Assembly: GCF_011397635.1 (NCBI RefSeq)
Contig: NC_064771.1
Location: 18,477,379 to 18,541,378, forward strand
Origin: Epinephelus fuscoguttatus
Taxonomy: Eukaryota; Chordata; Actinopteri; Perciformes; Serranidae
Length of the DNA: 64,000 nt
Direction of reading: 5' to 3'
Shown here: piece by piece, positions 1 to 21,600 of the stretch
How positions within the stretch are numbered: the first letter of the stretch is position 1
How the letters are laid out: the number at the start of each line of letters is the position of its first letter
Notes under the pieces: model-generated
The model's database searches: none
Seen by the model: the letters and a program-made list of their open reading frames with translations, nothing else
Told to the model about the DNA's origin: nothing
Program-made: the position numbers and the translations under genes

Positions 1-315
1 GTGAGGCTCAGAGGGAGCTAGCCTTGTTGCTACAAGTGGCAATTACATTACAACTTGGCACTGTGTGTTTATTACGTCTTGTTTTGCCTTTGAGATAAAA
101 CCTTTGAAATGTTTGTGTTATCTGTTTAAACACAGAGTAACTAGCAACAGCAGAGAGGTGTCAGCTAACTGACTCAAGGATGCCTTCATATCTACTTTTA
201 AGTTTGCTAGCATTAGCCACCATTAGCTGCTAGTCACAGCAGGACAAGCAGGACTGTGTGTAACCGGTGTGCTCTAGTGTTGTCTGCATTGTGTTGTTAT
301 GAAGAGGCCCAGAGC

Positions 316-370
316 ATGGATATCTTTGGAGGCGATCTCCGTTTATTCCTGACAGCTCTGACAGCAAGAG
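316..370 (+). other. Candidate first coding exon of the Ig gene (signal peptide)
   Basis: The ATG at 316 opens 18 codons with a hydrophobic stretch (LRLFLTALTA), then a donor (gtaaaa) at 371. The phase is 1, which joins exactly to the V exon at 3716. An out-of-frame ATG at 299 starts a 17-codon overlapping uORF. I found no better signal-peptide exon up to 3715, but there is no direct evidence of splicing. Confidence 0.45.
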
Positions 371-3300
371 GTAAAAACACAGTCCTCTGTTAATTAAAAC
401 CATATAACTTAACCCCCTACACAAATGAACTTACACAGGAATATGTTAGCATATTATACAGTAAGTCTGGGCTGAAAAATGGACTTATAAACAGTTTAAC
501 AGCGCGGAAACACGGAAATTACTACGGCAATGTCGCTTACCTCTCCCATGGAATACAACAGCAAAAGGGGAGAGGCAAGGCGAGAGACACCCCTTTACAG
601 GTGGGGTACCCCCGAAGGGGTACAGAAACTGAGTATCAAATTCCACACATTGTCTATGGACAGTGGTGTAGAGGTAGTTGATGAGGTGGGTGTACTACTA
701 AGTGGATAGGCAGGTTAGCGTGGAGGAAGTGGGTATACTCTCCTATATATTACAATGGCTTTTTGGCTGATAGGTGAGTATACTGTAAATGGCCAGAAAA
801 AGAAGTGGGCATACCATGTATACCTGCGCATACCCTCCACTACACCACTGACTATGGAGGCCTACGAGTGTCAGGTAATAACAACTAAAAGCCCCCCTTT
901 GATTAGACGACTTCAGACATACAGTATGCACAGTGTTTTCTACAGGCCTACGCTGATTTATTTATTTATTTAATCTTATTTTATTGCACAGTTGCACATG
1001 GCGCACTGACTCAGCCCCTCCATGCTCCTATTTCTCTGTTTGTCAGACCAAAAATGAGACAAGAATTATCACGCTAGCAATCCCACAATCCCTTTGCCTC
1101 ATTTCCCGCCTGTGCGGATTGTTTCACCAGGAGGAGAGCTGGCAGCAGCTCAGCAACTTGCGAAATGGCCCTTCAGCCAGCGGCTATAGCAGCTTGAATT
1201 CAGTCAGCATGAGCACCAGCCAGCAGCAGCACCGGGTCTAACCTGTTAGCTGATCCAACAGGGAGTTGAGGCTGTCCGGTTCCCCGAAGCTGGGGTTGGT
1301 GCTGGCTTGATTCATATTGCCACGGCCACTGACTGGGGATCTGTCTCCACAGCTGCTCTGTGGTGGCGGGGAGTGAGGTGGAGCACACATTGTGATCGTT
1401 TATTAGCTACATAAACGAGCTTCATGCTGCAGCTGTGAAGCTTTGGCTCCAGTTAGCAGAAGGCTAAAATATTGGCAACGTTTTCTCTTAGTCTCTGGAA
1501 CGCTTTGCTGATATTATTTTATTAATTGTCAGGATACGACAATAAGTCCATCTTCCCTTCTTGTGGTTGCCTTGTAGTGTAAGCAGCTGTTGGCAGTGCT
1601 GGAATAGCAACTTTTTGTGTACGATTCTTCGCCATTGAATCAGGCTTTCACCATCTTAAGGAAGGCACGCGCGCATCTGCATTAGTAGAACAGCCAATAG
1701 GAGCGCTCTCTCTCCGAAATGGCCTGTGGTTGGCCAATAGATATTGCAGAAATCTATTTTTCTCTCAGCTCAGAGTTTGGGGTTTTTGCCCAATGACGCC
1801 AAAATTCAAGTACCTACATGAGCCTTAACACTTGTCGCCAACATACTTTCCAGGTGTGCCAAACTCAATGCATAATTTCAGCTTTACTCTCGATTTTAAA
1901 TTCAATAACAAACTTCTAGCAAAACTATAAACATTGGTTGTCCATATTGCTTCACCATTTTGCCAACTGCCTTTCCACGTTGACGTGAGCTGCTTCGCTC
2001 AAGACAGCATCGCATGTGATGTGGATTAAGTCTTTATAATGCAGTTGTTTTTGTTTTCTTTTACTTAGCTTTGGTTATTTGAGTATTGTTTACCCTTATT
2101 TGTGTTGATAGTGTGCTACATTCAGAATACACATCCATGCTTCACACATTTGGTTTCTGTGTGTATGTGTGTTTCCATGTATGAGAATTGGATTGCTAGC
2201 TGCCACACCCTACACACAGAAAAAGCAAAAGCCAAGTGTTTTTCATCAGTGCGAAGTAGGTGCTTAATCTGCTTATTCAGATGATGGATTGTGTGTGCTA
2301 TGTTGACACAAGAACAAGATTTAGAAGAGGCTGCAAAAATTGTTTGCTTTCCCCGGAGATGTAAAATGTTTTGCTTGTTTAGTGTGTAGAGTTTTGCATA
2401 AGTACCTTATAGTTTCAAGGATAGTGCCTAAGCAATCAGGTAAAAAACTGGAACAGAACAAAGGTGGTTTTTATTACTTATGGATTCAAACTTGGAAGAA
2501 GAATATTGTGTAAATGTTTTTCTTTTGAAGGACATAATAGCTTCACAGGAGTTACACAATGTACAGGGTTCCCACATCCATGGAAAACCTGGAAAAGTTA
2601 TAATAATAATACATTTTATAAATTTATAAGATATCACAATCACATCTCCAGGCCTGGAGAAGTCTTAGAATCAGTAAAAATCATTGAAAGTTTTGAAAGA
2701 AATCATGAAATTGTTGCTGAAATCAACATTTTGTTTACTATCACATACGTTTCCTCATTTTCTTCCCACATTCTGTCTCTCCCTTCATGTATGCCAGTTA
2801 GCCGAAATTATGTTTGAATAGCATTTTAATCTGTCATATTCAAAAAATGTATGACAAGTTTTTACCAAGAAGTTTTTCATCCTACCGCACTGGCAACAGC
2901 CATAGCTGGAGGTATTATGTTTTCAGGTTGTCCGTATTTACATACATACATACGTCACATTCTCATGAATGCAAAATCTCAAGAACACCTTCAGGGAATT
3001 TCTTCAAATTTGGCACAAACATCCACTTGGACTCAATGACGAGCTGATTAGATTTTGGTGGTCATAAGTCAGAGGTCAAGATCACTGTGACCTTGTTTGT
3101 CTCATTCTTGTGACCACGGTGTCTCAAGAATGCCTCAAGGGAATTTTTTAAAATTTGGCACAAATGTTCACTTGGACTCAGCGATGAACTGATTAGATTT
3201 TGGTGGTCATAAGTCAAAGGTCAAGATCACTGTGACCTTGTTTGTCTCATTCCTGTGAACACAATTTTTCAAGAACACCTTAAGGGAATTTCTTCAGATT

Positions 3301-6300
3301 TGCCACAAACGTTCACTTGGATTTAAATGATGCACTGATTAGATTTTGGTGGTCATAAGTCAAAGGCCAAGATCTCTGTGACCTTGTTTGTCTCATTCCT
3401 GTGAACACGATATCTAAAGAAGACCTTGAGGGAATTTCTTTAAATTTGGCACAAACGTCCACTTGGACTCAACAATGAACTGATTAGATTTTGGTGGTCA
3501 AAGGTCAAAATCACTGTGACCTTGTTTGTGTCATTCATGTGAATGCGATATCTCAAGAAGACCTTTATGGAATTTCTTCAAATTTGCCACAAACGTCCAC
3601 TTGGACTAAAGAATGAGCAGATTAGAATGTACTGCCGTAAAGGATCATCAATGAGTGCAGTTCAGCAAAGGCTCTTTATGTCCTCTCCATCTAAACTTTC
3701 TTTCTCTGCTCACAGTGTCTCCAAGTGAAATACAGGCCAGCCCAAATACAAACGCAATCCTCCCCTGCAACGTGACGTTCCCCCTCTCTGCAACAGGGGA
3801 CAAAATAGACAAGTCTCTCATCCAAGTCAGCTGGATAAGTAATGGCTCTGACATCGCCTCATTCGGAGAGGGAGTGCCACAGATAAAGCCAGGCTTCAGT
3901 TGGGACACCACTGATTTCGTCAACGGGGACTTTTCACTGACCGTCCTCAGAGCCGCTCTCGACCTGCAGGGGGTGTATGAATGCACAGTCAGCTACAACT
4001 CCACAGCCGTGCGCTCCAGCAACGTTACATTTAGTATCCTCGGTACGCCTCGTCTTTGTCCAGTTGTTGAGATTTGATTTGCACATTTAACTGCACATTT
4101 CAACCTAAAAGCAGGTACACAGCTGAAATTTTAATCCCCTCTTATTCCTTCTTCTCCCCTTTTTAGCCTCCCCCACTCTCTCTGTCCCTCAGCAGTGGAT
4201 GGTGTTAGAAACAGAGAGTCATCTCAAATGCCATGCAGATGCTTTCTATCCTCCCCCTGTCTTCTTCTCCTGGACCAGAGATGGGCAAGTGATTCAACCT
4301 CCCTACATCGTTGAAGGTGAACAGACTCCAGATGGGTACTACATGGCTGTGGGCAACCTGACCTTCTACCCTTCACGCGAGGACCAGAATGCAACCTTTG
4401 GCTGCAAAGTGTCACACAATGGCAGCGACCGCAAGCTTGATTTCATGCTTAATATCACCTGTGAGTGACACAAAGACACACTGAGTCAACCACAATGACT
4501 CATTACCTTTTTAACTTTATGTAGAATCACAATAGCTGCCTCTGTCAATCATTAAAGGACAATCTGTGAGAACATCTGCTGTTGTTTTTAAATCAGATTA
4601 AGCTCATGATTAAACATTTAGATATTGTCTTTGTCTCCACAGATCTCCCTTCTGTGAGACTTTCTGTCATTCCCTCGCACTCCAACAACATTCCTCTCAC
4701 TCTTTACTGTGACATGGAGAATTTCTACCCAGAGGAAGTGTCCGTGTCGTGGCTTCAAAATGGCACAGTCCTCCCTGAGCCCCTTGCCACCGAGCAGAAC
4801 CCAGATGGGACCTATAGAAGTAGACGCTACTATACTTTGAGTCCTGAGCAGAGGGAGCAAGGTGGGAAGGTGGAGTGTGCAGTTAACCAACCGGGGGTAA
4901 TGCATCCAGTCAGCGGCTCAGCGTACCTAGAGAAACTGGACCCTCGAGGTATATATTTGATACAATTTTCAACATTCTTAAAAGTAGAGCAGACACAGGG
5001 TACAATTCACATTTGAGACATGCAATCATTTTTGTTTCTCAGTATCTTTTTCACTTTGATTGATGGTGATAGATAATCTAATGACGTCAGACGACAAATG
5101 TCTGAGAACTGCAAAAGCAAAACAAAGTCTGGCTGCAAGATAAAGAGACATTGTGCAGTTGTTTGCAACTTGTTCATCTTGTTCTTGATGCTTGCATAAT
5201 GTAATCATACACACTTCTCTCACTCTGTTTCCTCCCAGATGAAGCTCCAGTGTTGACTAAATCAGCCAAAGCATCTGTGGCCATGATGTGTATTTCTATT
5301 GTACTGGTCTTCCTGCTCTGCTTTGGCTTTTCTTGGAGGAGAAGAGATGGTGAGTCAGAGGGCAGTGGTACGCACCACAAGCACCCTCAAAGGGACAGCT
5401 CACCCGAAATCAAAAGAACATAGTTTGAGTTGCAGAGTGTTGGCAATATCGGCTGTAGAGATGTTTGCCTCTTCTTGAATGTGATGGACCTAGATGACAA
5501 CCTTATGGTGCTCAATACACCCCCAAAAAAAATTAAAAAATGAAAACTCAGCATCAATGTCTCTTTCCAGAAGTCATGACCGGGTTACTCAAGATACCCA
5601 AGATGGGGGCGGCAGTAGTTCAGTCCACAGGGACTTGGCTTGGGAACTGGAGGGTTCCTGTTCAAGTCCCTGTCCGGACCAAAATATGAAGCGTGGACTG
5701 GTAGCTGGAGAGGTGCCAGTTCACCTCCTGGGCACTGCCGAGGTGCCCCTGAGCAAGGCACTGAACCCCCCAACCGCTCAGAGCGCCTGTCATGGGCTGC
5801 CCAGTCTGACATCTCTCCACTTAGTGCATGTATAGGTCCAGTTTGTGCTTGTGTGTGTTCGGACCTGTGTGTAATTGACAACAGAGTGAAAAATTGAATT
5901 TCCCCTCGGGGATTAATAAAGTATATAAAAAAAATAAAATAAAAATAAATAAATAAATAATCCACAGACCTTGTTGTGAGCAGTTTCATGTAGGAACTAT
6001 TGTCTTTCTACTGAACTACACCCACCAACCATATCACGGCGCAGGAGGACGCGTGCATCTACTCAGGCTCGTGCTCCTCCTCATCTGAGCTGTAATGTTA
6101 GCTAGCTCAGTGGTGCTACGTGAGCTAGCAGTAGATGCACGCTTCCTTTTTTTTTAGGGTTGTAAGATGTGGTTCAGTAGAAAGAAAATGACACACTAGG
6201 GCTGCATCTACAGTGATATGTTTTTTATTTTAAAATACATAACCATTGCCATGTTTACGCCTAACATCCACACTACTCTGGTGTTTTTGAACCCCAAAAA

Positions 6301-9300
6301 CAGACCTTTGAAAACACTGCTGACCCCGTTTTAGTTTGAAAACTCTTTTGTGATTTAATTTTTCTTGTGTCAGTACTCCCTTTTCATCGCCACAGCTTCC
6401 TTTAGCGATAATTAGTAAACAGGTGCCGTGAGCAGCACGCATGGCATGGCAGCTTTATTTGTATAGCATATTTCATACATTTGGGGTCAATTCAAAGTTG
6501 AGAAAAATTGAGTTTGAAAATATAGCTGCAATCATTACAGGGTGGAGTAGACGAAATGGGAATGTTTTTAGCTTTGACTTAAAAGTATATCACGTATCTA
6601 AGAGGAAGCTACAAAAATTATGGACACAGCGCTGGAAAAAAAACATAAATAAAGCAAATCTGGGGTTGACTCTCACCTATACTTCAGCTGGTGATACTGT
6701 TTACGAACAGTACCCCACAATTCCTGCATTGTACACTTTTATCTTAAACTTCGACTTATAACTGCAAACTTGATTCTTCAGTCGACACTCTTGCTGTCAG
6801 GCCTGTATCTATGTTAAGAATGTACCAGTACTCAAGATGGACAGGCCATATCATCAGCAGCTCTCACTTGTTACAGGCTACCTAACTTGCTATCATGGAC
6901 ACAAAAAGACGGGCATTCAATTTTTGCTTCTTGTAGCAATAGGCCTCTGCAGAGGCGGACACAGCACGTCAGTCAAATTCAAAATTAATCGTCTCAGCAA
7001 TCGAAATTTAATCAGGACCAGGAAATTTACAGCGTCATCATATGTTTTGAGTAGCCTGTCAATCATTATGTTTCAGTGTTTATTTTGTTCCCCATTTCAT
7101 TGTAATTGCCATACAGACCTAACGACAGTGCTGCTGCCATGTGTGGCAGTTATTTATAATTTAGGACAGGGTCTATGTCAGTGGTTCCCAACTGGTCCAA
7201 ACACGGGGTCCAGATTTCTCCTTAGTCTTGGTTCAAGGTCCACACAGTTTATAGATTTAGCATCATGCATGTCAAGTGTGTTTTTTACAAACTTGACGTG
7301 TTTGCAGGTCACTTGTGGTCCATTCAGAATGGACCAGCAACCTGCATTTTGACCGTGACCCACCAGTTGGGAACCACTGGTCTGATTTTTTTGTAAATGC
7401 AGTTAGGAAACATTTTACTGTAGTAAAGTGAGGTAAGATGGGATGTTCAGATGTTCAAAAGATATGCGAGTAGAGATACTACAAAAAGGCATTGTCTTTA
7501 AAACCAAAATCTTGAAAATGCAACAAGGCCTCTGTTCTTTATTGGCATAACTCTGAACTGGCGTTTACAGTATCACATTTCCATAAACTATTATGTTGCT
7601 AAACTATAAGCACTTAGACACGATGGGTTTCAGGCAGACTGTGAGGAATGCATGCTTGACAGCAAACCTTATAGATATTGCACATCAGCTGTCACCTCAA
7701 CATCCTCTTTACTGTCACTAACTAATTTATCTGTGTTCTTTTTTTCCTCCCTCAGAGAAACAGAAGTCCCTGAATGTGTCGGGGATCATCCTCCCGCCAC
7801 GCGTGATCGTAGGTCAAAAGGGCAGGGTGACAGTGAGCATTGAGGGCAGGAGGGTGGACCGAGTCCAGACTGCATGGTTCCTCAATGACACTCCTATCTC
7901 TGACACTTCACTCACAGGTAGGAGAGGTCACACACATCCATATAACGAGCACTTCAAGGGCGTAGGTTTCATTTCAACATAAGAAGCCTGGAGTCCTCTC
8001 CAGGCAAGTTTTGAGCATCAAACTTTTCATTTCCTGCATTCTGGTGAAGTTTTACACACCAGTTAGTGGTGGAAATGTTTTCATTCACGTAGAGAAAAAT
8101 ACAAAATCAATAGATGATGATGATTATGAAAATTTAATAGAATGTAACACAGTAAAGCTTTCAGGCTTTCAGCTTTCAAATACTCATTCTCCTGTAGATC
8201 AACTTTTCTTCTAATGTATCTCTGCTGATTAGTAGCATAGTGGGAATACTGTCTTTCAGAATAAGGGGAAGAAATTAAATATTTTGTGCATGTAAACATA
8301 GTCAGTGTGGAAAAGATGATGCTTTCAACTTTAAAGACATAGTTCAACATTTTGTGTTTTTTCAATGTTTTCCCAAGAATCAAAGACAAGATAAAAACCA
8401 CTCACATATCTGTACAGTAAATATGAAGCTACCACTATCAGATAAGTCAACATGTTTTATCGTACTTGTTTAATCAGTACAAAAACCAAAGCAGCAAAAC
8501 AACACACTGGGGTTTGATGTGGGAATGATGTGCCACACTATTTCTTGGCCAGACACAGTGAATTCCTTGGGGTGCTGTTGTCACGGTGACGTTGCCAAAC
8601 AACCAGCAGAGATGCAGATTTTATACTGTTTTTGTACAGACTAAACAAACCAGAGAACATGTCTATTTTGTGAGCTTGCAGGTGCTGGTGTGTGGAGTTT
8701 ATCACCTTTAGAAAGAGGCAGGCTCGCTGTCTCCTCCTGTTTCTATTCTTTATACTTAAGCTAAGCTCCTTCAAGGCAACTTAAAGAAATACTTTACCCA
8801 CAAAATGATCATTAATGAATCTGTTAGTCATGTTGTGTTATCTTGAATTCATGAGGAACACTTTGTTTTTCTTACATGCCTCCACAGAAAACATACTGAT
8901 TTAGTGGTTGGTTGGGGATCACATTTAACAGTAGCAAAACTATATCAAAACATCCGTTTACAGACTCTCACAAAATTTGTGCAGTAAAATCCAAGTCTCA
9001 TTTATCCAGTCATATTTAGTTGTTCTTTTATCTCAGACATGTTAGGATGTTACATACCTTGACATGTTTCGGCAGCCTTCCTCAGAAGTGTCACTTGGTG
9101 GTGGTTGTGACGCATGTTTATGAGCTGATCTGTCAATCAGCCGATATTAGGGTCCGTCTGCCGCCTCTCCAGGACGCTGTTCCAGGTGTGGGAGAGCATG
9201 TATGCCCCCCCGTCCCTGTTCATCGTCCCTGGGCCCCGCTTCCCTATTTCAATAGCCTCCCTGATCCATCGCCGGTATTTGTTGTCCTCGGTGTGTATGA

Positions 9301-12300
9301 CTCTGGCCTTGTCCCTTGGACACTTCTGAGGAAGGCGTAAGTTTCCGCCAAAACATGTCAAGGTATGTAACATCCTGACATGTCTGAGATAAAAGAACAA
9401 CTAAAGTCATTATCAGAAACTAAAGACATAATGAACACCATTGAACTACTAAGAGTTTGACTTTGAAGATATCATAGATAAGTTTAATTTTCAGTTAGGT
9501 TCTGGATAAGGTTTTTTAGTGATAATGCATGTGCTTGGGAAAAACTGAGCATACGACTGGATAAATGAGACTTGAATTATACTGCAAGAGTTGTGTCAGA
9601 GTGTGTAAATGGATGTTTTGCTGTAGTTTTGCTGTTTTAAACGTGGTCAGTCAATAAATCAGTATGTTCGCTGTTTTCTGTGGAGGCACACAAGTTCAAG
9701 GTGACACGACATGACTAATTTATGAATAGTACAAACGATCATTTTGTGAGTGAAGTTTTCCTTCAAAGGGATTGTTTGTGTTTTTTTGTCAAGTGTGGCT
9801 GTATGATATACAGTGGTGCCAGGGCCCTCTGCCCAGAGTTTGCATGTTCTCCCTGTGTCAGTGTGGGTTTTCTCTGTGTACTCCAGCTTCCTCCCGCATT
9901 CCAAAGACATGCAGGTTGTTTGGTGAAATTGCTCGTAGGTATGAATGTGAGCATGACAGGTTGTCTGTCTCTGTGTGTCAGCCCTGTGATAACCTCATGA
10001 CCTGCCTCTCACCAATGTCAGCTGGGATAGACTGAAGCACACCCGGGACCCCCAACAGCATAAGTGGTTACGGAAAATAAATGAATGAATGTCTGAGATA
10101 CTTATCTATAGTCTGTGTCCTACATACAGTAGGTGGCTGTTGGCACACTCCCTGTTTGCAGAACAGCTTACCAGTGATGTACAGTGCAAGGCTCTGCTGG
10201 GCGTATTTGCACAGGAATATGGAAGTTTTACGGTTGAGAAAATGTAGCTCCAAAGGAAAGTGCTGACTGACGGCAAGGTGAAGCGGTGCAGATATTATAA
10301 ACATAAAGAGGTTGATGTTGACTTTTTTTAAGTAGCTAAAACACATATTGCTGATAACCCTAATCCAATGCATAGCTGAACATCTAGGGTGCTAGTCCTG
10401 TCTGTTTCTGCAAACAGGGAGCGTGCCAACCGCCATCTACTGTAGGTAAGTATCTCATACAGCCCCACTTCAAAAAACCTGGACTATAACTTTCAAGGGA
10501 AATAAAAATGTGGAAAGCAGAATGATGTCACATGAGATGTCTTCTATTTGTATTGTAACTACTCCTAAACCATACCATGTTTTCTCTTTTACACTTAATT
10601 CTGCTAACACTGTACAACCTCACACACATAGGAACCTCCAAAGCTAACTTTAACTGCCTCTATAACCCTCTAACCACCATCCATCTGCCCTACGGTCTAA
10701 CTCTCACCTCTCCAGTGTCGGAGAAAGGCCCTCTGCTGTCCTCCAGAGGCCAGATGGGTTACTACAAGCTGCACACTCAGGGGCCGTTGCATTCATCTGG
10801 AAGTGGCATTCAACAGCTGACCTCCTCCCTCACCTTCATCCCCCAGATTTCAACCCACAAGGGGGCGGTGTTTAAGTGTCAGGTGTCCTACGTGGGCAAA
10901 GATAAGATCGTGGTGGAGAGAGTGTCAGAGAAGTTTACCATCCTGTGTAAGAAAGATTTTCATTTACTCATACTGCATCTGCTTTTCTGTGATCACAGCA
11001 ATTTATGGAATTGATATCTTTGTACACTTTGTCTTTTAGCTGCTCCGGAGGTATCAGAAATCCAGCTTGCAGAGACACCAAGTGACTCAGGTAAACATCT
11101 TATTCTGTTGCACTTTAATGGATGTAAAACATTCCTGGTTGTGAGAGGCTGCATCTCTGCAATTCCTGTCTTCCAGATGTCATCAGCATGACCGTCCGGG
11201 CGTCACATTTCCATCCGGACGTCATTACCTTCCGCTGGTTCTGCCAGGGGAGCGAGCTGAGCCCTGTGGCCTCCCAGGCCTCGTCCTCGCCTCGACCCAA
11301 CTCTGAAGGCTTTTTCTCAGCCTTCAGCCAGTGTAAGCTGCCCCGCAGTGAACTGGAGAAGGGTGGCACTAAAGTGTGGGTCAGTGTTCACCACATCGCC
11401 CTGAAGCAGCCCGTCACCCGCGAGACCAGAGGTAAGAACGAGATGAAGAAAGGGCATACAGTTTGACAGTAAAAATCAAAGCTTACATCTCCACTTTAAC
11501 CCAAATAGGATTCATCAAGACGCCGTGTGTGTCCGAAATCGTCGGCTCCACTTCTTCCCCAGACCAGACTTTGACCCTTGGATGTGAGATCACAGATTTC
11601 TACCCTCTGAATGTGTCAGTCACCTGGCTGAGGCTGAGGGAGGGAGAGCAGGATGACAGAGAGGAGGAGGTGTTAGAGGGAGGAGAGATGTGGGGCCCCA
11701 TACAGACTCAGCCCGGACTCTACAGGGCCACGGCCATTCTGAGGAGAAAGGCAGTGAATCAGGAGAAAAAGGAAAGAGGAGGGATTATCTGTAGAGTGGA
11801 GCACTGTTCCCTACACGAGCCTATGGAGAAACACTGGAGATATGTTGACATCGGTATGAATCATCATCATTGGACATTATCCCTATGATATAGTTCTTTC
11901 AATGTCTAAACTCAAACTTCACTCTAAGATATTATTCCTATTCATTCACTTCCTGTTTGTATTCCTTCAGCTGCTCCGTCCATTCCTCCATCGCTCTCTG
12001 TCTGTTGGAGCAGTGAAGGCGTTGGTGTGTTCTCCGTCCTGTTGAAGGGAGGTCACCCTAAGGCCAAATTACTCTGGGCAGCAGGAGGACACACTCTCTC
12101 ACCACTGGTGTCCAACGAGACAGAGGAGATAGGAGACGACGGGCAGAGGGAGCTGAAAAGTGTGTGTGCCTTGGAGAGATCCACGAACCTGCCACATCAG
12201 ACTAACAAGCAGCTGGAGAGACAGAAGAATGGACACGCCATAAGTACATGTCATTGCTTTATATACATACCTCTTGTTTTAAAGAGTATTTAAAGGGGAA

Positions 12301-15015
12301 TTCCAAAAATTTAACACATCATGTATGTATTGTCGTCTGTGGCTCTAGAGGAGCTATTAAAGTCTGGGAGAGTAACCCTGGTGATGTCATCTAGCCTCAG
12401 TCCCGCCCACACTGGAAGGGAAAACAATGATAGTTACGCTTGAGGTAACAGTCAGGTCAGCAGAACACCTAAAAGAGACCTCAAGGTCAGACTACTTGAC
12501 CTTGAGGCTTCCCAGTTGTGGCGGAGGGAACACAGCTGCCCAGATAAGGGTGCTTAGCCAGCTCTGTTGCCATAGCTCCCAGGGTTAAGGGGAAGGGAGA
12601 TTGCCCCATGTTCCAGGCTCAACAGACGAGAGACTCTTTTTAGATATGTGCATTTTGTTAGAGACAGTCAAGGTGATTCAGCTCGAGCCAGGTGAGTGTG
12701 CTTGTTGTTTAAAGTTGGTAACCAATAGAAACTTCACATAGCCATAGGTCAGGACAGAATAACCTTATCTGGGAACATGGAGTAACTCACAAGGGAATAC
12801 TGTTTGGGTTAAATGCAAGAACTAGGCAAGGACACCCTCAGAAACTCTGGACGGCATACACAGTGTGACACTCAGTATGTTGAGCGGGGATTCTCTTCGA
12901 TCAAGTCTTCAGAAGACAAAATTGGATATTGCTGACATTACTTTCATAAAGTGGAGGTTTTGTATGTATTAAATGAGTTACTTTTGCTAATTTGTCCAGA
13001 AAGACTGTTTACGTTAAAGGTAACTATGCTATGCAAGGCCTGGTGTTGATATTTGTAGATTAAATGATGATCTTACCTGGTGATTTGATCAAATATTGGT
13101 AGTACACAAGTTGCCTGAAGAAAATGTTTGCAACGTAGGTTACTGCAAACCACGGATATGTTACATTTTTACATTTCAAAGGTATTAAATCAGCATTTCT
13201 TAGGTGACTTAGTAAATGAGCTGACTTTTTCATTGAGAGGAGGAGGGGATGGTGGATGGTGTGTCACCGTGGTGAAACACCTGCCAACCTGCAGGCCACT
13301 GTTTTTTGAAACCAAAAAACAAAAGTGGTTGTGTTTTAGCGAGTCATTGCTGTGTTTCCAGTTGCTTTTTAGCCGCCATATGTGGGTGTTTTTTAGGGAC
13401 CAATTGTGATTTTCTTTTTTTTTTAAGAATTTTTTTGGGGGGCATTTTTTGCCTTTAATGGACAGGACAGTTAAGTGTGAAAGGGAGAGAGAGAGGGAGT
13501 GACATGCAGCAAAAGGCCACAGGCTGGACTTGAACCCGGGCCGCTGCGGCAACAGCCTTGTACATGGGGCGCCTGCTCTGCCACTAAGCCACCGATGTCC
13601 CGAATCCTGATTTTCCACAGGGCATAGTCCCCAAAAAATCATTCGTTTTTTACATGGACATCGCTGTGTTTTCTGCTGTGATTTTGCCCCCAACACTGGA
13701 GATTTTAAGCTCAAACATGATCTTTTTTCTAAACATAACCAAGTTGTTTTTGTGCCTAAACCTAGCCACATGTTAACCACAGCATTATTAAAATTTAAAG
13801 TTCCGTAAACTTAACGTATCAATGGTTTGCAGAAATGTACAACACCAAAAAATTTTCTGGCGATTGATTTAGTTGTAAATATCAAAGTATTTCACTTCTG
13901 AAATAAGCAAAGGTAAGGAGAGGGGACTTTAAGACAGACTGACAATATTGAGTTTGACAATATACATTTTCCTTTCTGATAGACACAGGTTGCTAAAATA
14001 ATCCTTTAAATGTAATGTTTTTAGCTAGCGACAGGTTTTTGTGAGGTTATCAGCTGTTGGTTGCAAATCGTGGTGACAATTGTTTTCCCGTCTGGTGGGC
14101 GTGGTTTCAGGGTATGATGCCCTCTTTCTTTGTTTTTGGCTCGGGTTCAATGTCAGCAAGTTTTTGTTGGGAGCCCTGTGCCACAAAGTTGGGCCTGGGG
14201 TTTAAAAATATGTGGATAGTGATGAAACATGATTTTCCTATTGCATTATGGGAAGTTCAGTATTCTCTCCTTCACCAGTCTCCTTGAAAGTATCAGGTGT
14301 GCAAACTAGATTTACATTTGTGTGAGATCTAAAATATCTTGTGCATGTTAAGTGGAAACTCAACACACACCCTCCACGCAGTGTTTGCTCTGACGTCTGA
14401 GGTTGCACTCCCTCATATGCCACACTGTGGTCACTCTGATGTGTGGGGGAGGGGTATGATATGCAGAAAGCCAAAAAAGCCAATACAGTATTTCTATTTT
14501 GTCTGACATAAAACACTCTACATAAACTTTGGTCCTGTCTTCATTTTTTACTGTTGTTGCTTCACAGAAACAAAAGCAGCCGTCACAGACCCCCACACTG
14601 AAGGCATTGAATACATCGACGAACACGTGGATGGAGAGAATAACAACATTGACAGGGACGAGGAGACAAAGTCAGACTTGGATGAAGACAGTGACAAAGA
14701 AAGAGACGAAGACCCGGGAGCACTGCACATCAACAGAGTGAACTTGAGGAAGGGCCCCAGAGAGAACGAGAGAGCACGTTTGAGAGTGTGCGTGGAGATC
14801 ACACACCCCGCGCTCAAGCTTCCTGTTTATCGGACCTGGACAGGTGAGACAAACGAACAGATTAAACAGAGTCTACATCATGAGTGAAAGATAACTGAAG
14901 TGCCAACTGCCAAAAAGTTGATGTGACACTCAACAGGAAGTTAGCTCATGTTTTCCAGCTTGATCTTGTGTCTTCTCTTTCAGAGCCCAATGAGGAAATT
15001 TCATCTTCCGCATGA
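316..15015 (+). CDS. Multi-Ig transmembrane protein (V-C1-C1-TM plus C-terminal Ig-like modules)
   Basis: Model exons: 316-370, 3716-4042, 4167-4460, 4643-4948, 5239-5349, 7756-7917, 10632-10946, 11040-11090, 11177-11431, 11509-11853, 11971-12243, 14568-14843, 14984-15015; 933 aa. Every junction is phase 1, as usual for Ig exons. Residues 1-18 are a short hydrophobic signal-like start (the least certain exon). Residues 19-127 are a V-type domain with Cys, Trp and the GVYEC motif. Residues 128-225 and 226-327 are C1-type domains with FYP and a Cys pair. A helix at about 340-360 is followed by RRR, implying N-out/C-in topology. Residues 365-933 hold further V/C1-like modules, an acidic linker and a stop. 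The ectodomain has about nine N-glycosylation sequons, the tail about four. The V-C1-C1-TM order resembles SIRP or tapasin-related receptors; no orthologue is recognised. The second half could instead be a separate gene or an isoform. Confidence 0.72.
371..2957 (+). other. Ig gene intron 1, left part
   Basis: No recognised coding domain on the plus strand. It holds a possible antisense exon (1243-1390) with CCAAT boxes nearby (1694, 1734, 1790). The rest is AT-rich sequence with no clear feature. Confidence 0.4.
1243..1390 (-). CDS. Possible first exon of a divergent minus-strand gene
   Basis: Read on the minus strand from the ATG at 1390, a Pro/Ser-rich open frame of 49 codons (MCAPPHSPPPQ, ending DSLNSLLDQLTG) runs to a donor-like ag|gttaga at 1243. 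Three CCAAT motifs lie 300-400 bp upstream at 1694, 1734 and 1790, as in a housekeeping promoter. The remainder would lie left of position 1 or be hidden in introns. I do not recognise the family. It may be a chance ORF in a GC-rich patch. Confidence 0.3.
2958..3640 (+). repeat. Tandem array of ~140-bp units, about five copies
   Basis: Units begin near 2958, 3115, 3262, 3405 and 3540 (last one partial). Shared blocks are gggaatttcttcaaatttgg, cacaaacgtccacttggact, gattagattttggtggtca and a block with AGGTCA followed by TGTGACCT. It ends about 75 bp before the V-domain exon. Similar AATTTGGCACA-type blocks are widespread in fish genomes. Confidence 0.85.
5239..5349 (+). other. Transmembrane exon of the Ig gene
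   Basis: This 111-nt exon (phase 1-1) encodes 37 aa: a short stalk, a hydrophobic helix of about 20 residues (VAMMCISIVLVFLLCFGF) and the stop-transfer RRR. It is a multiple of three with equal phases, so skipping it would keep the frame and remove the membrane anchor. Confidence 0.8.
5389..6200 (+). mobile_element. MITE-like repeat interrupted by a SINE
   Basis: It starts with AAAGGGACAGCTCACC, the terminus of a common fish fold-back family. Its distal part (about 5963-6150) matches, in inverted or rearranged form, the element at 34753-35091: both contain the GTTAGCTAGCTCAG and AGTAGATGCACGCTTCCTT blocks and the TGAGCAGTTTCATGTAGG end. The SINE at 5608-5960 sits inside. Confidence 0.6.
5608..5960 (+). 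mobile_element. tRNA-derived SINE
   Basis: A tRNA-like head is visible (GGCAGTAGTTCAGTCCACAGG as box A region, GGTTCCTGTTCAAGTCC as box B). The body is followed by a LINE-type tail (ccctcggggattaataaagt) and an A/T-rich AAATAAAT tract. It is in plus orientation, in intron 5 of the Ig gene. Confidence 0.8.
7179..7379. mobile_element. hAT-type MITE, 201 bp
   Basis: The ends are inverted repeats (CAGTGGTTCCCAACTGG and CCAGTTGGGAACCACTG). Flanks gtctatgt and gtctgatt look like a decayed 8-bp target duplication. A second copy is at 51473-51792. There is no coding capacity. Confidence 0.8.
7756..7917 (+). other. First exon after the TM exon (N-terminal half of a V-like module)
   Basis: It encodes KSLNVSGIILPPRVIVGQ and continues to a TAWFLNDT segment, in phase with the TM exon. 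The B-strand position where a Cys is expected is not Cys. The second half of the module is on exon 10632-10946. Confidence 0.65.
8780..9772. mobile_element. Long imperfect fold-back element with a nested palindrome
   Basis: The left arm (8780-9016) is repeated in reverse complement at about 9545-9772; for example ACAGAAAACATACTGATTTA and GTCTCATTTATCCAGTC recur inverted. A second palindrome is nested at 9017-9406, bounded by TAGTTGTTCTTTTATCTCAG and its complement. No ORF of note. It lies in intron 6 of the Ig gene. Confidence 0.75.
9800..10090 (+). mobile_element. 3' end of an L2-type LINE
   Basis: It carries blocks typical of fish L2-type 3' ends: TTTGCATGTTCTCCCTGTGT, CCAAAGACATGCAGGTTG, GTCAGCTGGGATAGACTG and a final ATAAATGAATGAATG tail. 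It is truncated at its 5' end. Confidence 0.6.
10091..10461. mobile_element. Fold-back MITE
   Basis: The left arm (10091-10165) and right arm (about 10400-10461) are inverted copies sharing GAGATACTTA, the CTACAGTAGGTGGC-type block and TCCCTGTTTGCAGAA. The middle has no coding signal. Confidence 0.7.
12244..14567 (+). other. Ig gene intron 11
   Basis: Mostly unannotated. Near 12874-12930 a short frame reads VERGFSSIKSS, reminiscent of the C-terminal region of hAT transposases, but it is too short to call. A SINE in minus orientation lies at 13414-13602. Confidence 0.4.
13414..13602 (-). mobile_element. tRNA-derived SINE, minus strand
   Basis: Read on the minus strand it begins with a tRNA-like head (GTGGCTTAGTGGCAGAGCAG as box A, GGGTTCAAGTCCAGCC as box B). 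A body and a tail (TTAAAGGCAAAAAATG) ending in poly-A follow. Confidence 0.8.
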
Positions 15016-15279
15016 CAGCCCTGATGTGTGCAAGAGTGCCACTGTATTTCATATATCCCATATAATATATCTAATATATATCTTTATAGTAGTAGCCAAG
15101 GTAGTCTTTGATGATGTGGATTTGCATCTACTATGTTTGGTTTTTATTTATTACCTTTTATTCTTAATCTGTCACCCATCACCTTTTTCCAACCTCATGA
15201 TTTTTTATAAATGTTCATATTTTTGTACGAATAATTTTACAATAATAATCTGGTTCTTTTTCCTCAATCTGCTTTGGAG

Positions 15280-15285
15280 AATAAA
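15280..15285 (+). terminator. Poly(A) signal of the Ig gene
   Basis: AATAAA about 265 bp after the stop codon at 15015, with a T-rich downstream stretch. Confidence 0.6.
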
Positions 15286-15708
15286 ATCTAATTTTTTTTG
15301 AAGAGATGTTTCTTTGTATTTTGTTTTTCTCTGTGAAGATGAGTCAACAGGCAGAGTTACTGTAGTTCTCTTCTGTTCAGTGTTCTCATATCTGCTATTG
15401 GTCAACCACTGAAAGAAGTTCTCATTTTAAAACACACTTCTGTTTTTTCTCTGCTGCACTCCGACCACAGAGAATGTCACTTCACTGCTCTGAGCGGACG
15501 AGGTGCTGCGTGGTTGAACTGTGAAATTAAGATGTTGTTTAGTTTAGAACTTCCTTCTTATTCAGCGAGTACGTCGACCACGGCTGCAAACATGCATATT
15601 GCAAAATACAGTTTTCATTCCTTGTATATGAAATAAGATTTGTGTATTTTGTGTTCTGCAAAATTCTACCAGCTTCCACAGATATTGTCTATGTGATACT
15701 TTTTAGTA

Positions 15709-16836
15709 TACACACTGGCCACTTTATTAGGTACACCTTGACCCCTTTTGCCTTCAGAACTGCCTTAATTCTTCATTTCATAGATTCAACAAGGTGCTGG
15801 AAACATTCCTCAGAGATTTCGGTCCATATTGACATGATAGCATCACACAGTTGCTGCAGAAAGTGCTCTATTGGATTGAGATCTGGTGACTGTGAAGGCC
15901 AGTGGAGTACAGTGAACTCATTGTCATGTTCAAGAAACCAGTTTGAGATGATTTGAGCTTTGTGACATGGTGCGTTATCCTGCTGGAAGTAGCCATCAGA
16001 AGATGGGTACACTGGTCATAAAGGGATGGACACAGTCAGCAACAATACTCAGGTAGGCTGTGGTGTTTAAACCATGCTCAGTTGGTACTAAGGGGCCCAA
16101 AGTGTGCCAAGAAAATCTCCCTCACACATTTACACCACCAGCAGCAGCCTGAACCGTTGATACAAGGCAGGATGGATCCATGCTTTCATGTTGTTTACAC
16201 CAAATTCTGACCCTACCATCTGAATGTGGCAGCAGAAATCCAGACTCATCAGACCAGGCAACGTTTTTCCAATCTTCTATTGTCCAGTTTTGGTGAGCCT
16301 GTGTGAACTGTAGCCTCAGTTTCCTGTTGTTAGCTGACAGGAGTGGCACCTGGTGTGGTCTTCTGCTGCTGTAGCCCATCTGCTTCAAGGTTGGACGTGT
16401 TGTTGGTTCAGAGATGGTCTTCTGCAGACCTTGGTTGTAATGAATGGTTATTTGAGTTGCCTTTCTATCATCTTGAACCAGTCTGGCCATTCTCCTCTGA
16501 TCTCTGGCATCAACAAGGCATTTTCACCCAGAGAACTGCTGCTCACTGGATATTTTCTCTTTTTCGGACCATCCTCTGTAAACCCTAGAGATGGTTGTGT
16601 GTGAAAATCTGAAATACTCAGACCAGCCTGTCTGATACCAACAACCATGCCATGTTCAAAGTCACTTAAATCACCTTTCTTCCCCATTCTGATGCTCGGT
16701 TTGACCTTCAGCAGGTCGTCTTGACCATGTCTACATGCCTAAATGCATTGAGTTGCTGCCACGTGATTGGCTGATTAGCTGTTTGTGTTAACAAGCTGTT
16801 GAACAGGTGTACCTTATAAAGTGGTCAGTGAGTGTA
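15709..16836 (-). pseudogene. Degenerate Tc1-like transposon
   Basis: The ends are inverted (TACACACTGGCCACTTTATT... and ...AAGTGGTCAGTGAGTGTA) with TA at the borders. On the minus strand three fragments in different frames show Tc1-family transposase features: an N-terminal helix-turn-helix region (16448-16687), the first catalytic Asp in VAWSDESGF (16122-16490), then QQDNAPCHKA and SPDLNPIEH with the remaining catalytic residues (15773-16012). Frameshifts and stops between the fragments make it inactive. Confidence 0.92.
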
Positions 16837-17722
16837 TGTTTTCTAAATTTCAAAAAGAGGACTACATGACCAATGGAAACCTCATACAGCTGCTACTATC
16901 TACTATCTACTACTATCACTATCATGAACATACACTTTGCATGTACTGTATAATAGTGTGCACATCAGCAAGAACTCAATAAGTAGGAATTTTTTGACGT
17001 GACAAGGAAAAAGGTGAATAAATATAACTTTTGCAGGAGAGTGTCAATAATTGACAACAATGCTAAATGCTTAAAGTGTAGCTGTGTGAACAGTACTCCT
17101 CCAATTTAGCATTACACTCTCCTAATATTGAGTCCAGCCCAGACACCAGAAGAAACTGTTGGCTAGTACGTTTCCACAAAGTACGACATTATTTACACAT
17201 TTCGTACATATGATATCAGCAACAGTGACATAATATATATGATCTGACTTTGTCACTGGGAAGTTGAGGGGATGGTAGAGGGTGTGTCACCTAGGCGAGA
17301 TATTTAGAAGTGTATTTGTCCCCCTCAATAAAAACATAAAAGTAGCAGAGGACTTTATTTTGACACAACTAAAGACATTTAACCATAAATTGATGCAAAA
17401 AAGGCACAAGCCGGTGCTTAGAAATTCACCAGAATGCAGAAAGTTAAGTGTTGGATGCTCAAAATTTTATGAAGAAGGACCTGGTCCGCCCGGTCATACC
17501 AGACCAAGTAAGCCCTACAGCTGTAGCAGCAAAATCCCTGAGTGTATGGAAGTGAAAAGGGTGTGTTTCAGTGCTTCTGCATTCAAATTTAATTTGGTCA
17601 AGAGTATATTAGTTTTACTTTGGAGACCGACGTAGTGATGTGCCCAAAGACTGTCTTTGTTATATTAAACTCAAGAAAAAACATAGATGCTCTTGAAGAA
17701 AAGGGTCAGCACATGGGTAGGC

Positions 17723-18043
17723 AAAATGAACTTCAGGCACTCAGATGTGGAGCTGGAACAAATGCTTAAAAAGTTTAAAAGCCTTTATTCAAAAAAAACA
17801 TGGCTGCTTACATTAAAACACTGACTTGTCTTCATCGGGGTTTTTTTTATTTAAAATTTTTATTTTATATTTTATTTTATTTTATGTATTTCTTTTATTT
17901 TTATTTTTTGCATTCTGATGAAGACCTTAGGGTTGAAACTGGTCAGTGTTTTAATGTAAGCCATGTTTTTTAATAAAGGCATTTTAACTTAATTCAACTG
18001 CATTAGTTCCTGCTCCATTCATGAGTGCCTGAAGTTCATTTTT
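17723..18043. mobile_element. Fold-back MITE
   Basis: Outer arms aaaatgaacttcaggcactc and its complement lie at 17723 and 18043. Further inverted blocks AACATGGCTGCTTACATTAA and AAACACTGACTTGTCTTCATC sit nearer the centre, around a T/A-rich middle (17842-17925). Confidence 0.75.
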
Positions 18044-18604
18044 TCTTTCCCTATATTCTATTAACTGACAAATTTCAGTCTTGTTTAAGCACATTTTTAA
18101 AATTACAGTGCTGTGTGGGTGGTGTATCTCTAATTTGAACACCAGTCAACCAAATGCAGGCCAATCTGTACTGTTATATTTAAGTTTAAGAGACTTTATA
18201 TTATGGGATGTTTGCAAAGACTGAGATCTGTTTATTTTTGGGAAGTTGGTCCTAATCATGAAGACGCGTTCAGGAGCTCCTGGTGTTGATGAATCAACAT
18301 GAACTCTGCTGAATGTGATCAGATCTATTTAAAAACACCCACATCAGCTCTGAAAGCAGCTGTGGCCTGACTTAACAGAAGCTCTGCGCATATCCGCAAA
18401 CTGTGCAACACGTAAGCTTGATGCTGTGGCGACTCAGCTGTGTTAATCACCTTCTTCCTCATCATGATACACCGGACATATGTCTATACAAGGAACTGAG
18501 CCGCGGCCATCAGCGGAGGCGCACAGGGCTGGGCGCGTTTGGATGGAGCTGCTGTCGAGTTACAGGAAGGTTTAACTTAACTGTTTGTCACATCCAGAGG
18601 AATA

Positions 18605-21600
18605 ATGTCAGAAGGTCAGAGGGACAACACGGAGGAAGGTTTGAGGATGGACGAAGACAGTCCCATGATCAGCAGGGTGGAGAGGACTTTTTGGACAGTT
18701 TGGGTGAGCTGCTGCTGCTGCGTCTTAACGCGACATAACTGCTTTAATTTTAATGTTAGCAGCAGTAAACGTGGATGGAAAGTCTCCATCTTCCTGTGTC
18801 CGTGAACCCCCCTCAGTCTCACTCTCTCACTCTGCACGCACACACACACACACACACACATATGGTATGTTCATACAGGAACAGCACTGACAAAGAAGGT
18901 CATATGAGGTGTTAAATGCACACTACAGAGCCAAAAGTACATGGACACCCAAACATTACATCACTGCTGTTTTTAAATCTGTCTTCAGGAAATTTGTCAT
19001 TTGCACATTGTTCTTGTTGTTTTTTTAATTGTCTAACAATCTCACAAAACATTCCTGAGTGTGAAGAACTCAGAAAACAGAGGCAAAGTCTATATTTTTG
19101 TGTCGGTTTAAAAGCAGTTGAATATTTTAAGCCAGTATTCATCATTTACTGAGTATTGGAAACTTTATTTTTCATATGCAAACATGCATTTAGACAGATT
19201 GCACAGTTTTTCCCTGCTCAGCTGATCTGCTACACGCTCATTTAAACGGTCTAGCTTACACTAGTTTATTGCATTTATGTGGAAGTGATTATTTGTTGGT
19301 GTAGCACTATAACACTGTCTGTGTTTTGCCTACAATTAGAGCCTATTACATAGCTCTGTCTGGGAATTTCCACTAGGAAATATATTAGGAACGTTACAGA
19401 TTTATCCCCCCTCATTCCTCAGCAAAAGCATGAGTGAGGTAGTGATGTTGGACTGTAAGGCCTGGCTCACAAACTATTGTTGTGTTTCAGCAGACCCTCT
19501 TCACAGTGGAAATTTTCACTTGTATGAACTGGAAACACACTGAGAACATTAATGATGGCTGTATTATATTTAGTAGTATGAGTCAAAGAGTCCTCCAACC
19601 CACAGGACCAGGACAGTCTCATATGAACGTTGAGCTTACTAGATGCTTAAAGGTGCTTCAATGCTCCTGTTTTTAGAACAGCAATGGATGATTATGTTTA
19701 AAGCTACAGTGGATAACTTTTGTGAACATAACTTTTTGTCGTATTTGCTGAAAATGTCATTATATTGTGAAAGTAGGATGTCAGACAGTCTGTGAAAAAA
19801 TTATGTCTCTCCCCATCTTCTGCCTCTAATGACATTTGCTAGGATCTACGACTATGCACAGACAACAACCAATCAGAGCTGAGCTGTCAGTGATGTCAAT
19901 TACTGCTCATGAACTGAAGTCAAACTGTCAAACGAGGCAGCGCTGATCAAATATGAAACAAGATTCTGTTACAGCATTGCCTATTTCTCACCTCAGATGT
20001 TTTCAGAAACATTCAGCTGTAAAATGAGAAAGTCTGTGACCCAGCTGCCATGTTAAAAACAAACACCATCCACCAGCCGGAGCAAACTTTCTTGGCTCTG
20101 ACTGGTTGGTTTTATTCATGTGCTATACGGCTGTTAGAAGTGTAACCATAACGCCTAGTAGCAAGGGAAGACTGTAACCATAATTACTGCACACATTATA
20201 TTCTGGAGTTATTTTTCTTACTTAATGGGATAGTGCACCCAGAAAGGAAAATTCAGCCATTATCTACTCACCCATATGCCGAGGGAGGCTCAGGTGAAGT
20301 TTTAGAGTCCTCACATCCCTTGCGAAGATCCCAGGGGAGAGGGGGTAGCAACACAACTCCACCTAATGGAGGCTGACGGCGCCCCAGATTCAAAAGTCTA
20401 AAAACACATCATTGAGACCACAAAATATCTCCATACTGCTCGTGCTTAGTGATCCAAGTGTCCTGAAGCCCCGACATAAAAAGTTGTTTGGAAAAACGTC
20501 ATTTGAACTCTGTTTTTAGCCTCATTGTAGCCTGTAGCTCTAACTGCCTCTCTGGAAACCGCGCTCACATGTGTGCGCGCTTGCACGCAAGACCAGCGAA
20601 AGCACGTGAACACACATGAACGCGGTGCCCACTTGGATCACTACGGATGAGCAGTATGGAGATATTTTGTGGTGTCAATTACGTGTTTTTGGACTTTTGA
20701 ATCTGGGGCGCCATAAGCCTCCATTAGGTGGAGTTGTGTTGCTACTCCCTCTCCCCTTGGATCTCTGCAAGTGATGTGAGGACTCTAAAACTTCACCTGA
20801 GCCTCCCTCGGCATATGGGTGAGTAGATAATGGCTGGATTTTCATTTTTGGGTGCACTATCCCTTTAAGTTACTGTGTTATTTATTAATGGATTCAGCAT
20901 TATTGAGTTACTGGTAAGGTGTTATTTCATCGTCATTTATGGTACTTTGTGTATTGTTTCATTTGTATTGTCATGTGCAGTGTTTAAGTGGAGTCACTGT
21001 GTTCCCTTGGTTATGAGCTAATTGGTTCCTTCCTGCTCTTGTTTTGAAGGGACAGGTGTGAGTGATACACGAGAGAGAGTGAGTGTCTCGTGCTTAACGG
21101 TAAAGGGAAGTTGCTGTACCTCCAAAGTTGGGGTGTGTTAACAACTGCCTTACCATGTTGGTAAAAATTAAATGAAGAGGAAGAAACGAATGTTGCAGCC
21201 CTCTGGGGAACACCAACAATCAAGAAAAGAGGGTTAAAGGAGTGCTACACTGCAACAGAGTAGGCAGAGGATTTTTTCACAGATTATGTCTCATCTGTTT
21301 CAGCAAATATGAGAAAAGGTTATTTTGTAGCTTTCATGTGAAAAATGTTGCTTGTAATGACAACCCTACAGGCAATTATTACCAGCTCTGCAGTTCCTCT
21401 CAGCTCAAAGGAGCATTTTAGCTTCTTTCAGCTCATTGTTTTGGTTTTATGGCCGCAACTTTGAAACCAGGCTACCTGTATGCCGCCAGTCCAGCACCAA
21501 ACAGCAGACAAAGTTAGTTATAGCTGTTGATCATAATGCAGCATTTAGTACCTAAAGAACCAGATACAGAAGATTTTGAAGAGAGCCTTAGGTCGCTTGA

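Follow-up and report, generated by a model that had tools for sequence, protein, structure and literature searches.

Does this grouper locus encode a receptor whose cytosolic tail is itself built of immunoglobulin (Ig)-type modules? In the window (the whole stretch of 64,000 nucleotides analysed here), 13 exons of the forward strand between positions 316 and 15015, rebuilt from the DNA, yield a single frame of 933 residues followed by a stop codon (Table 1). Their 12 introns are all GT-AG and all in phase 1. The exons encode, in this order, a weak leader, a V module, two C1 modules, one transmembrane (TM) helix, the residues WRRRD and then a tail of 569 residues. As the original prediction had claimed, the exons downstream of the TM exon continue in the same frame and phase: eight of them, with AG/GT borders, lead in phase 1 to a TGA at 15013-15015. 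Its exon listing was incomplete, since it omitted 11040-11090, a short exon required for the second tail module (T2).

With confidence little better than even, we read this chain as one gene coding for a type I receptor of the Ig superfamily (IgSF), in which the outer part and a cytosolic Ig-type tail are predicted to be joined. This reading is favored because basic residues follow the TM helix, no second TM helix was found, Cys pairs are lost in the tail, the excess of sequons is confined to the outer part, the linking introns contain no clear leader and the frame is open throughout.

Table 1. Exons, modules and 3' signal of the predicted gene, with positions in the window
Feature	Position	Strand	Evidence or remark
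Start exon, probable	316..370	+	Short weak signal peptide MDIFGGDLRLFLTALTA..., phase-1 donor
D1, V-type Ig, Cys36-Cys108	3716..4042	+	Pfam V-set 6.2e-8
D2, C1-type Ig, Cys149-Cys207	4167..4460	+	Pfam C1-set, outer part, 3e-26 in two stretches
D3, C1-type Ig, Cys248-Cys304	4643..4948	+	Pfam C1-set; outer module closest to T2/T3
TM exon, uncharged helix, ends WRRRD	5239..5349	+	111 nt, phase 1-1, in-frame skippable
T1 first half, canonical first Cys missing, in-frame ATG missing	7756..7917	+	Frame and splice sites; Ig identity weak
T1 second half, presumed E-F-G strands, Cys501	10632..10946	+	Pfam C1-set E 0.14, under cut-off; D2 likeness
T2 short exon, presumed A strand	11040..11090	+	Exon chain
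T2, C1-type, Val/Val at canonical Cys places	11177..11431	+	Pfam C1-set 1.5e-4; AlphaFold and Foldseek
T3, C1-type, Cys651 and Cys720 retained	11509..11853	+	Pfam C1-set 1.7e-7; z 14.2 vs D3
T4 first half, putative degenerate C1, Cys replaced	11971..12243	+	Weak T2 likeness; Pfam negative; poor fold model
Acidic insert, then putative T4 F-G part	14568..14843	+	T2 likeness, 0/2000 shuffles
Last coding exon, EPNEEISSSA and TGA, 32 bases	14984..15015	+	Exon chain
AATAAA polyadenylation signal, 3' of stop	15280..15285	+	Sequence motif

Outer part, leader and membrane anchor

With its V-set and C1-set modules, the outer part has the composition of a type I IgSF receptor. The Cys pair is intact in all three modules, and nine N-glycosylation sequons were counted where 2.7 are expected (P 0.0002), in agreement with the intact pairs and roughly nine sequons described earlier. 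The TM helix contains no charged residue and has a top 19-residue hydropathy of 2.63; its exon, which had been said to end in RRR, closes with ...FSWRRRD. In the proposed receptor, the V-C1-C1 part, probably glycosylated and disulfide-bonded, would meet the ligand and the single uncharged helix would anchor the protein.

The leader peptide of the start exon is weak and its assignment, made from sequence, is uncertain. Its hydrophobic core is short (KD 2.05 across 8 residues). The exon failed a stricter first scan and is the sole leader-like exon in 1-3715 at thresholds that were lowered so that it would pass. Furthermore, four leader candidates (two of them overlapping) with higher hydropathy are located in the last 5 kb upstream of the window. 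A piece of a trypsin-like gene was also seen upstream of the window, and a diverged tandem repeat was noticed by eye in intron 1 (3000-3640).

Modules and topology of the predicted tail

Taken as a whole, the tail matches the Pfam C1-set (9e-15, in two stretches) and, in the PDB, Ig heavy chains (best match 3.7e-9). Two of its modules, T2 and T3, also lie above the C1-set cut-off when taken singly and are firmly identified by sequence as C1 domains, their nearest outer module being D3 (z 10.6 and 14.2, respectively). The AlphaFold model of the main T2 exon (pLDDT 75.5) was based on an alignment of the other C1 modules of the window, which are canonical, and is hence biased toward the C1 fold. 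So obtained, the model matched IgM C4 and MHC class II domains in Foldseek (best E 1.0e-4), with TM-scores by query length of 0.59-0.75 among the 50 matches listed.

The Ig identity of T1 is weak. Its C1-set match falls under the Pfam cut-off, but against a small C1 profile none of 212 scored shuffles did as well, and the likeness of its E-F part to D2 was equaled by one of 2000 shuffles. A single match of T1 in the PDB (E 0.63) was judged to be due to chance. T4, the least certain module, is a putative degenerate C1. It gave no match in Pfam or in a phmmer search of the PDB, 10 of 149 scored shuffles were as good against the C1 profile, and the fold model of its first half is poor (pLDDT 41.6). 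Its likeness is mainly to T2: 29 of 2000 shuffles were as good for the first half and none of 2000 for the second half, which follows an insert with 34% D/E across 58 residues. The second half also resembles T3 (10 of 2000 shuffles as good), and no likeness to D3 was found for either half (515 and 370 of 2000). The claim that six later exon groups are of Ig type is thus firm for T2 and T3 only. The structure search of the tail that had been suggested recovered Ig domains with the T2 model; for the first half of T4, the model was too poor to be used.

Disulfides are not normally kept in the cytosol. In the tail, only one of the four modules has a complete canonical Cys pair, and most of the 11 cysteines lack a canonical partner. 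Most of the earlier description of these losses is borne out by the alignment: both canonical places are Val in T2, the first Cys is absent from T1, and T3 alone keeps the pair. For T4, as aligned to T2, the first Cys is replaced as described, but the second is missing too, since Cys906 lies one place off and Val stands at the canonical place. Both canonical places of T4 read Val in this alignment, by which T2 and T4 would share the Cys loss, T1 keeping one Cys and T3 both. The tail modules had been proposed to be relaxed or re-engineered. The second term fits T2 better than simple decay, because T2 retains the core pattern of a C1 domain in spite of its missing Cys. T4 may likewise be re-engineered, or it may have ceased to be an Ig module.

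No second TM helix was found in the tail, as predicted: the best 19-residue hydropathy is 1.19, compared to 2.63 for the TM helix, and nothing TM-like that follows the TM exon is flanked by an acceptor as well as a donor (the hydrophobic stretch at 5820 lacks the donor, and four more after 14843 lack both). The TM exon itself, being symmetric (111 nt, phase 1-1), might be skipped, and D1-D3 and T1-T4 would then be secreted as one chain. Such a soluble form appears improbable, given that the tail has no excess of sequons (4 versus 3.0 expected, P 0.36, i.e. chance level) and that a complete Cys pair is present in just one of its four modules; the 11 mostly unpaired cysteines would suit the cytosol better.

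If the protein is instead a single receptor with an inner tail, the 569 residues placed in the cytosol would comprise two clear C1 modules, one weak and one putative module and the acidic insert. The motif scan, which covered ITIM and ITSM, gave no match for either in the tail, and ITAM adaptors were judged by a charged TM residue, of which there is none; the protein thus lacks the marks of an ITIM/ITAM-type receptor. Since neither type of signal was seen, the tail would most likely be a protein-binding scaffold or a cytoskeletal anchor, by analogy with cytosolic Ig modules elsewhere. One PxxP and three YxxPhi sites were also detected, the latter leaving a tyrosine-based function conceivable.

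Coding signal and the proposed joining of the two parts

Codon scores were higher in the true frame than in both other forward frames for all 13 exons, with a margin above 9 bits for 10 of them (the start, TM and last exons reached 5.1, 2.6 and 2.3). A reverse frame scored higher in three of the 13 (TM exon, 11177-11431 and last exon). Absolute scores lie close to zero, which may reflect unusual training genes. By shuffling, the seven tail exons that precede the last one would all be open with a probability of about 1.5e-11, a figure that applies to exons picked as open. Open phase-1 pseudo-exons also occur by chance, nine of them in 15021-22000 and 12 on the opposite strand of 5350-15020. Since they are not rare, splice chaining by itself is not proof, and as coding evidence the homology seen in T2 and T3 outweighs the open-frame odds.

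These data bear on whether the tail exons could be what is left of a second Ig gene or cassette that is in decay and has lost its function, whether or not it is still spliced in. The Cys losses and a T4 barely recognizable as Ig are what such a relic would be expected to display. However, the 569 codons contain no stop or frame break, even though the divergence of T2 and T3 from D3 is large, and the shuffling result (with the same reservation on the choice of exons) and the frame-specific codon signal in the tail exons also speak against decay. We therefore hold a relaxed relic to be quite unlikely; a young relic of a gene that had already diverged would still be compatible with these observations.

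What joins the outer part to the tail is frame and phase alone, and the match in phase is unremarkable because all exon borders are in phase 1. The locus could thus consist of two tandem genes, a V-C1-C1-TM receptor and a downstream T1-T4 gene with its own first exon and a cytosolic or secreted product. Several features would fit this arrangement. The intron between the two parts (5350-7755) spans 2.4 kb and contains a high-copy repeat, read-through past the donor of the TM exon would stay in an open frame (5205-5423) and give a short tail that stops at 5421, and introns split T1, T2 and T4, unlike D1-D3. The repeat (5600-5960) is interspersed in the genome, 40 places (one being itself) having been scored of 3944 candidates, and its other scored copies are 92-95% identical. 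An AATAAA cluster 3' of the TM exon (5915-5952) would make a poor gene end, because it sits inside this repeat, which has 39 other scored copies.

A separate tail gene would also need a start. The first tail exon, 7756-7917, has no in-frame ATG. A new signal peptide near 7.7-10.6 kb, which the original prediction had named as a sign of a second gene, was looked for: at the lowered thresholds, the 5.1 kb of linking introns contain three leader-like candidates (7068, 9803 and 10081), compared to three in 9.1 kb of the same strand and three in 15.7 kb of the other strand. They are nominally commoner than in the controls but not clearly above background, and none makes a convincing leader exon for the tail. 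Frame and phase also match across the two parts, a cheap agreement among phase-1 exons. On balance, two genes seem unlikely, though less so than a relic or a soluble form. The unusual receptor with a cytosolic tail put forward originally is thus the best fit as a predicted single gene, next to which the two-gene and soluble alternatives remain. Nested inverted repeats, which probably correspond to a mobile element, were observed in the T1 intron at 8933-9633 (83 nt arms 86% complementary, 59 nt arms 97%).

As for the origin of a single joined gene, a second Ig cassette or a neighboring gene, without leader and TM helix, would probably have been joined downstream; such joining need not break the frame because Ig exons are in phase 1. 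More tentatively, and in our opinion with less than even probability, an immune-type receptor of a vertebrate would have turned a whole C1-type array into a cytosolic scaffold, with Val/Val at the canonical Cys places of T2 and, as far as the alignment indicates, of T4. To our knowledge, C1-set modules are otherwise known from the secretory side. If the joined protein is real, they would work in the cytosol without disulfides as the inner machinery of a receptor, an unusual design with an Ig-type tail mostly free of disulfides. The gene would also provide a natural test case for Ig folds that survive Cys loss and for the making of new receptor architectures by phase-1 exon shuffling.

Known systems, relatives and surroundings

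The best 60 of the 2418 PDB matches of the outer part include shark UrIg2, Ig heavy chains, SIRP-alpha and B7-H6. Like the grouper gene, SIRP-alpha (2wng, E 1.5e-9) and B7-H6/NCR3LG1 (6yjp, E 1.6e-7) have V and C1 outer modules, and we know of no Ig modules in the tail of either. SIRP-alpha carries ITIMs, unlike the grouper tail, in which the scan found no match. The best match in sequence is UrIg2 (PDB 9dmx, E 9.9e-18), a non-rearranging Ig (V-C1-C2-C3) that also has V and C1 modules in series. The grouper gene differs from it by its TM helix and its predicted Ig-type tail; its identified gene neighbors are eIF3C and proline dehydrogenase. The likeness, one of sequence alone, looks like generic C1 similarity, because overlapping alignments hit the same modules. 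UrIg is described as an MHC-linked, non-rearranging shark gene (PMC10751288).

On the cytosolic side, Ig modules serve as anchors in titin, MyBP-C and palladin, where they are of the I-set and belong to sarcomeric or soluble proteins. The grouper tail differs in having C1 modules behind a receptor TM helix. If the reading is true, it would be the C1-set counterpart of the cytosolic I-set proteins, i.e. an inside-out reuse of a module of antigen-receptor type. Titin, MyBP-C, palladin and others are named as cytosolic Ig proteins in a study of the sea cucumber receptor AjNLR-new (PMC13133943). The Ig domain of this receptor lies inside the cell, where it reportedly recruits Fidgetin and binds actin. 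AjNLR-new resembles the proposed grouper receptor in being a membrane receptor with Ig on the inner side, and differs by its single Ig domain, its extracellular NACHT, its invertebrate host and its overall architecture. It may thus be taken as a published precedent for the mechanism, the architecture of the grouper protein being different. Among the papers listed in searches of the open-access literature, none described a cytosolic Ig tail in a receptor of fish.

Relatives were also searched for in the grouper genome (1.047 Gb in 26 contigs, the window being on contig 20). Of the 45 matches obtained with the outer part at E <=1, four were the gene itself; the best other match has 33% identity (E 5.8e-6), so no close paralog was found. 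Four regions were inspected, which cover seven of the 41 other matches, and the C1 exons in them look like those of MHC class II. For the tail, seven of nine matches at E <=10 were itself and the two others had E >4; hence, no relative was found elsewhere in this genome at E <=4. A search for close relatives of T3, the only module used, found none in viral contigs and prokaryote genomes, and no NCBIfam match was obtained.

Several other features were observed in the window. Just 3' of the gene, open pieces on the reverse strand (15773-16738) presumably derive from a Tc1-type transposase. Further downstream, 22061-27355 (forward strand) contains a very acidic open frame of 1764 residues, in which diverged repeats of the TEHVTCSEEVTQNAPEQEDD type are numerous, and no Pfam match was found for it at E <=0.01. 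Finally, two neighbors, eIF3C (39675-39938, forward strand, Pfam 1.8e-21) and proline dehydrogenase (53817-54086, reverse strand, Pfam 8.6e-12), are useful as synteny markers.
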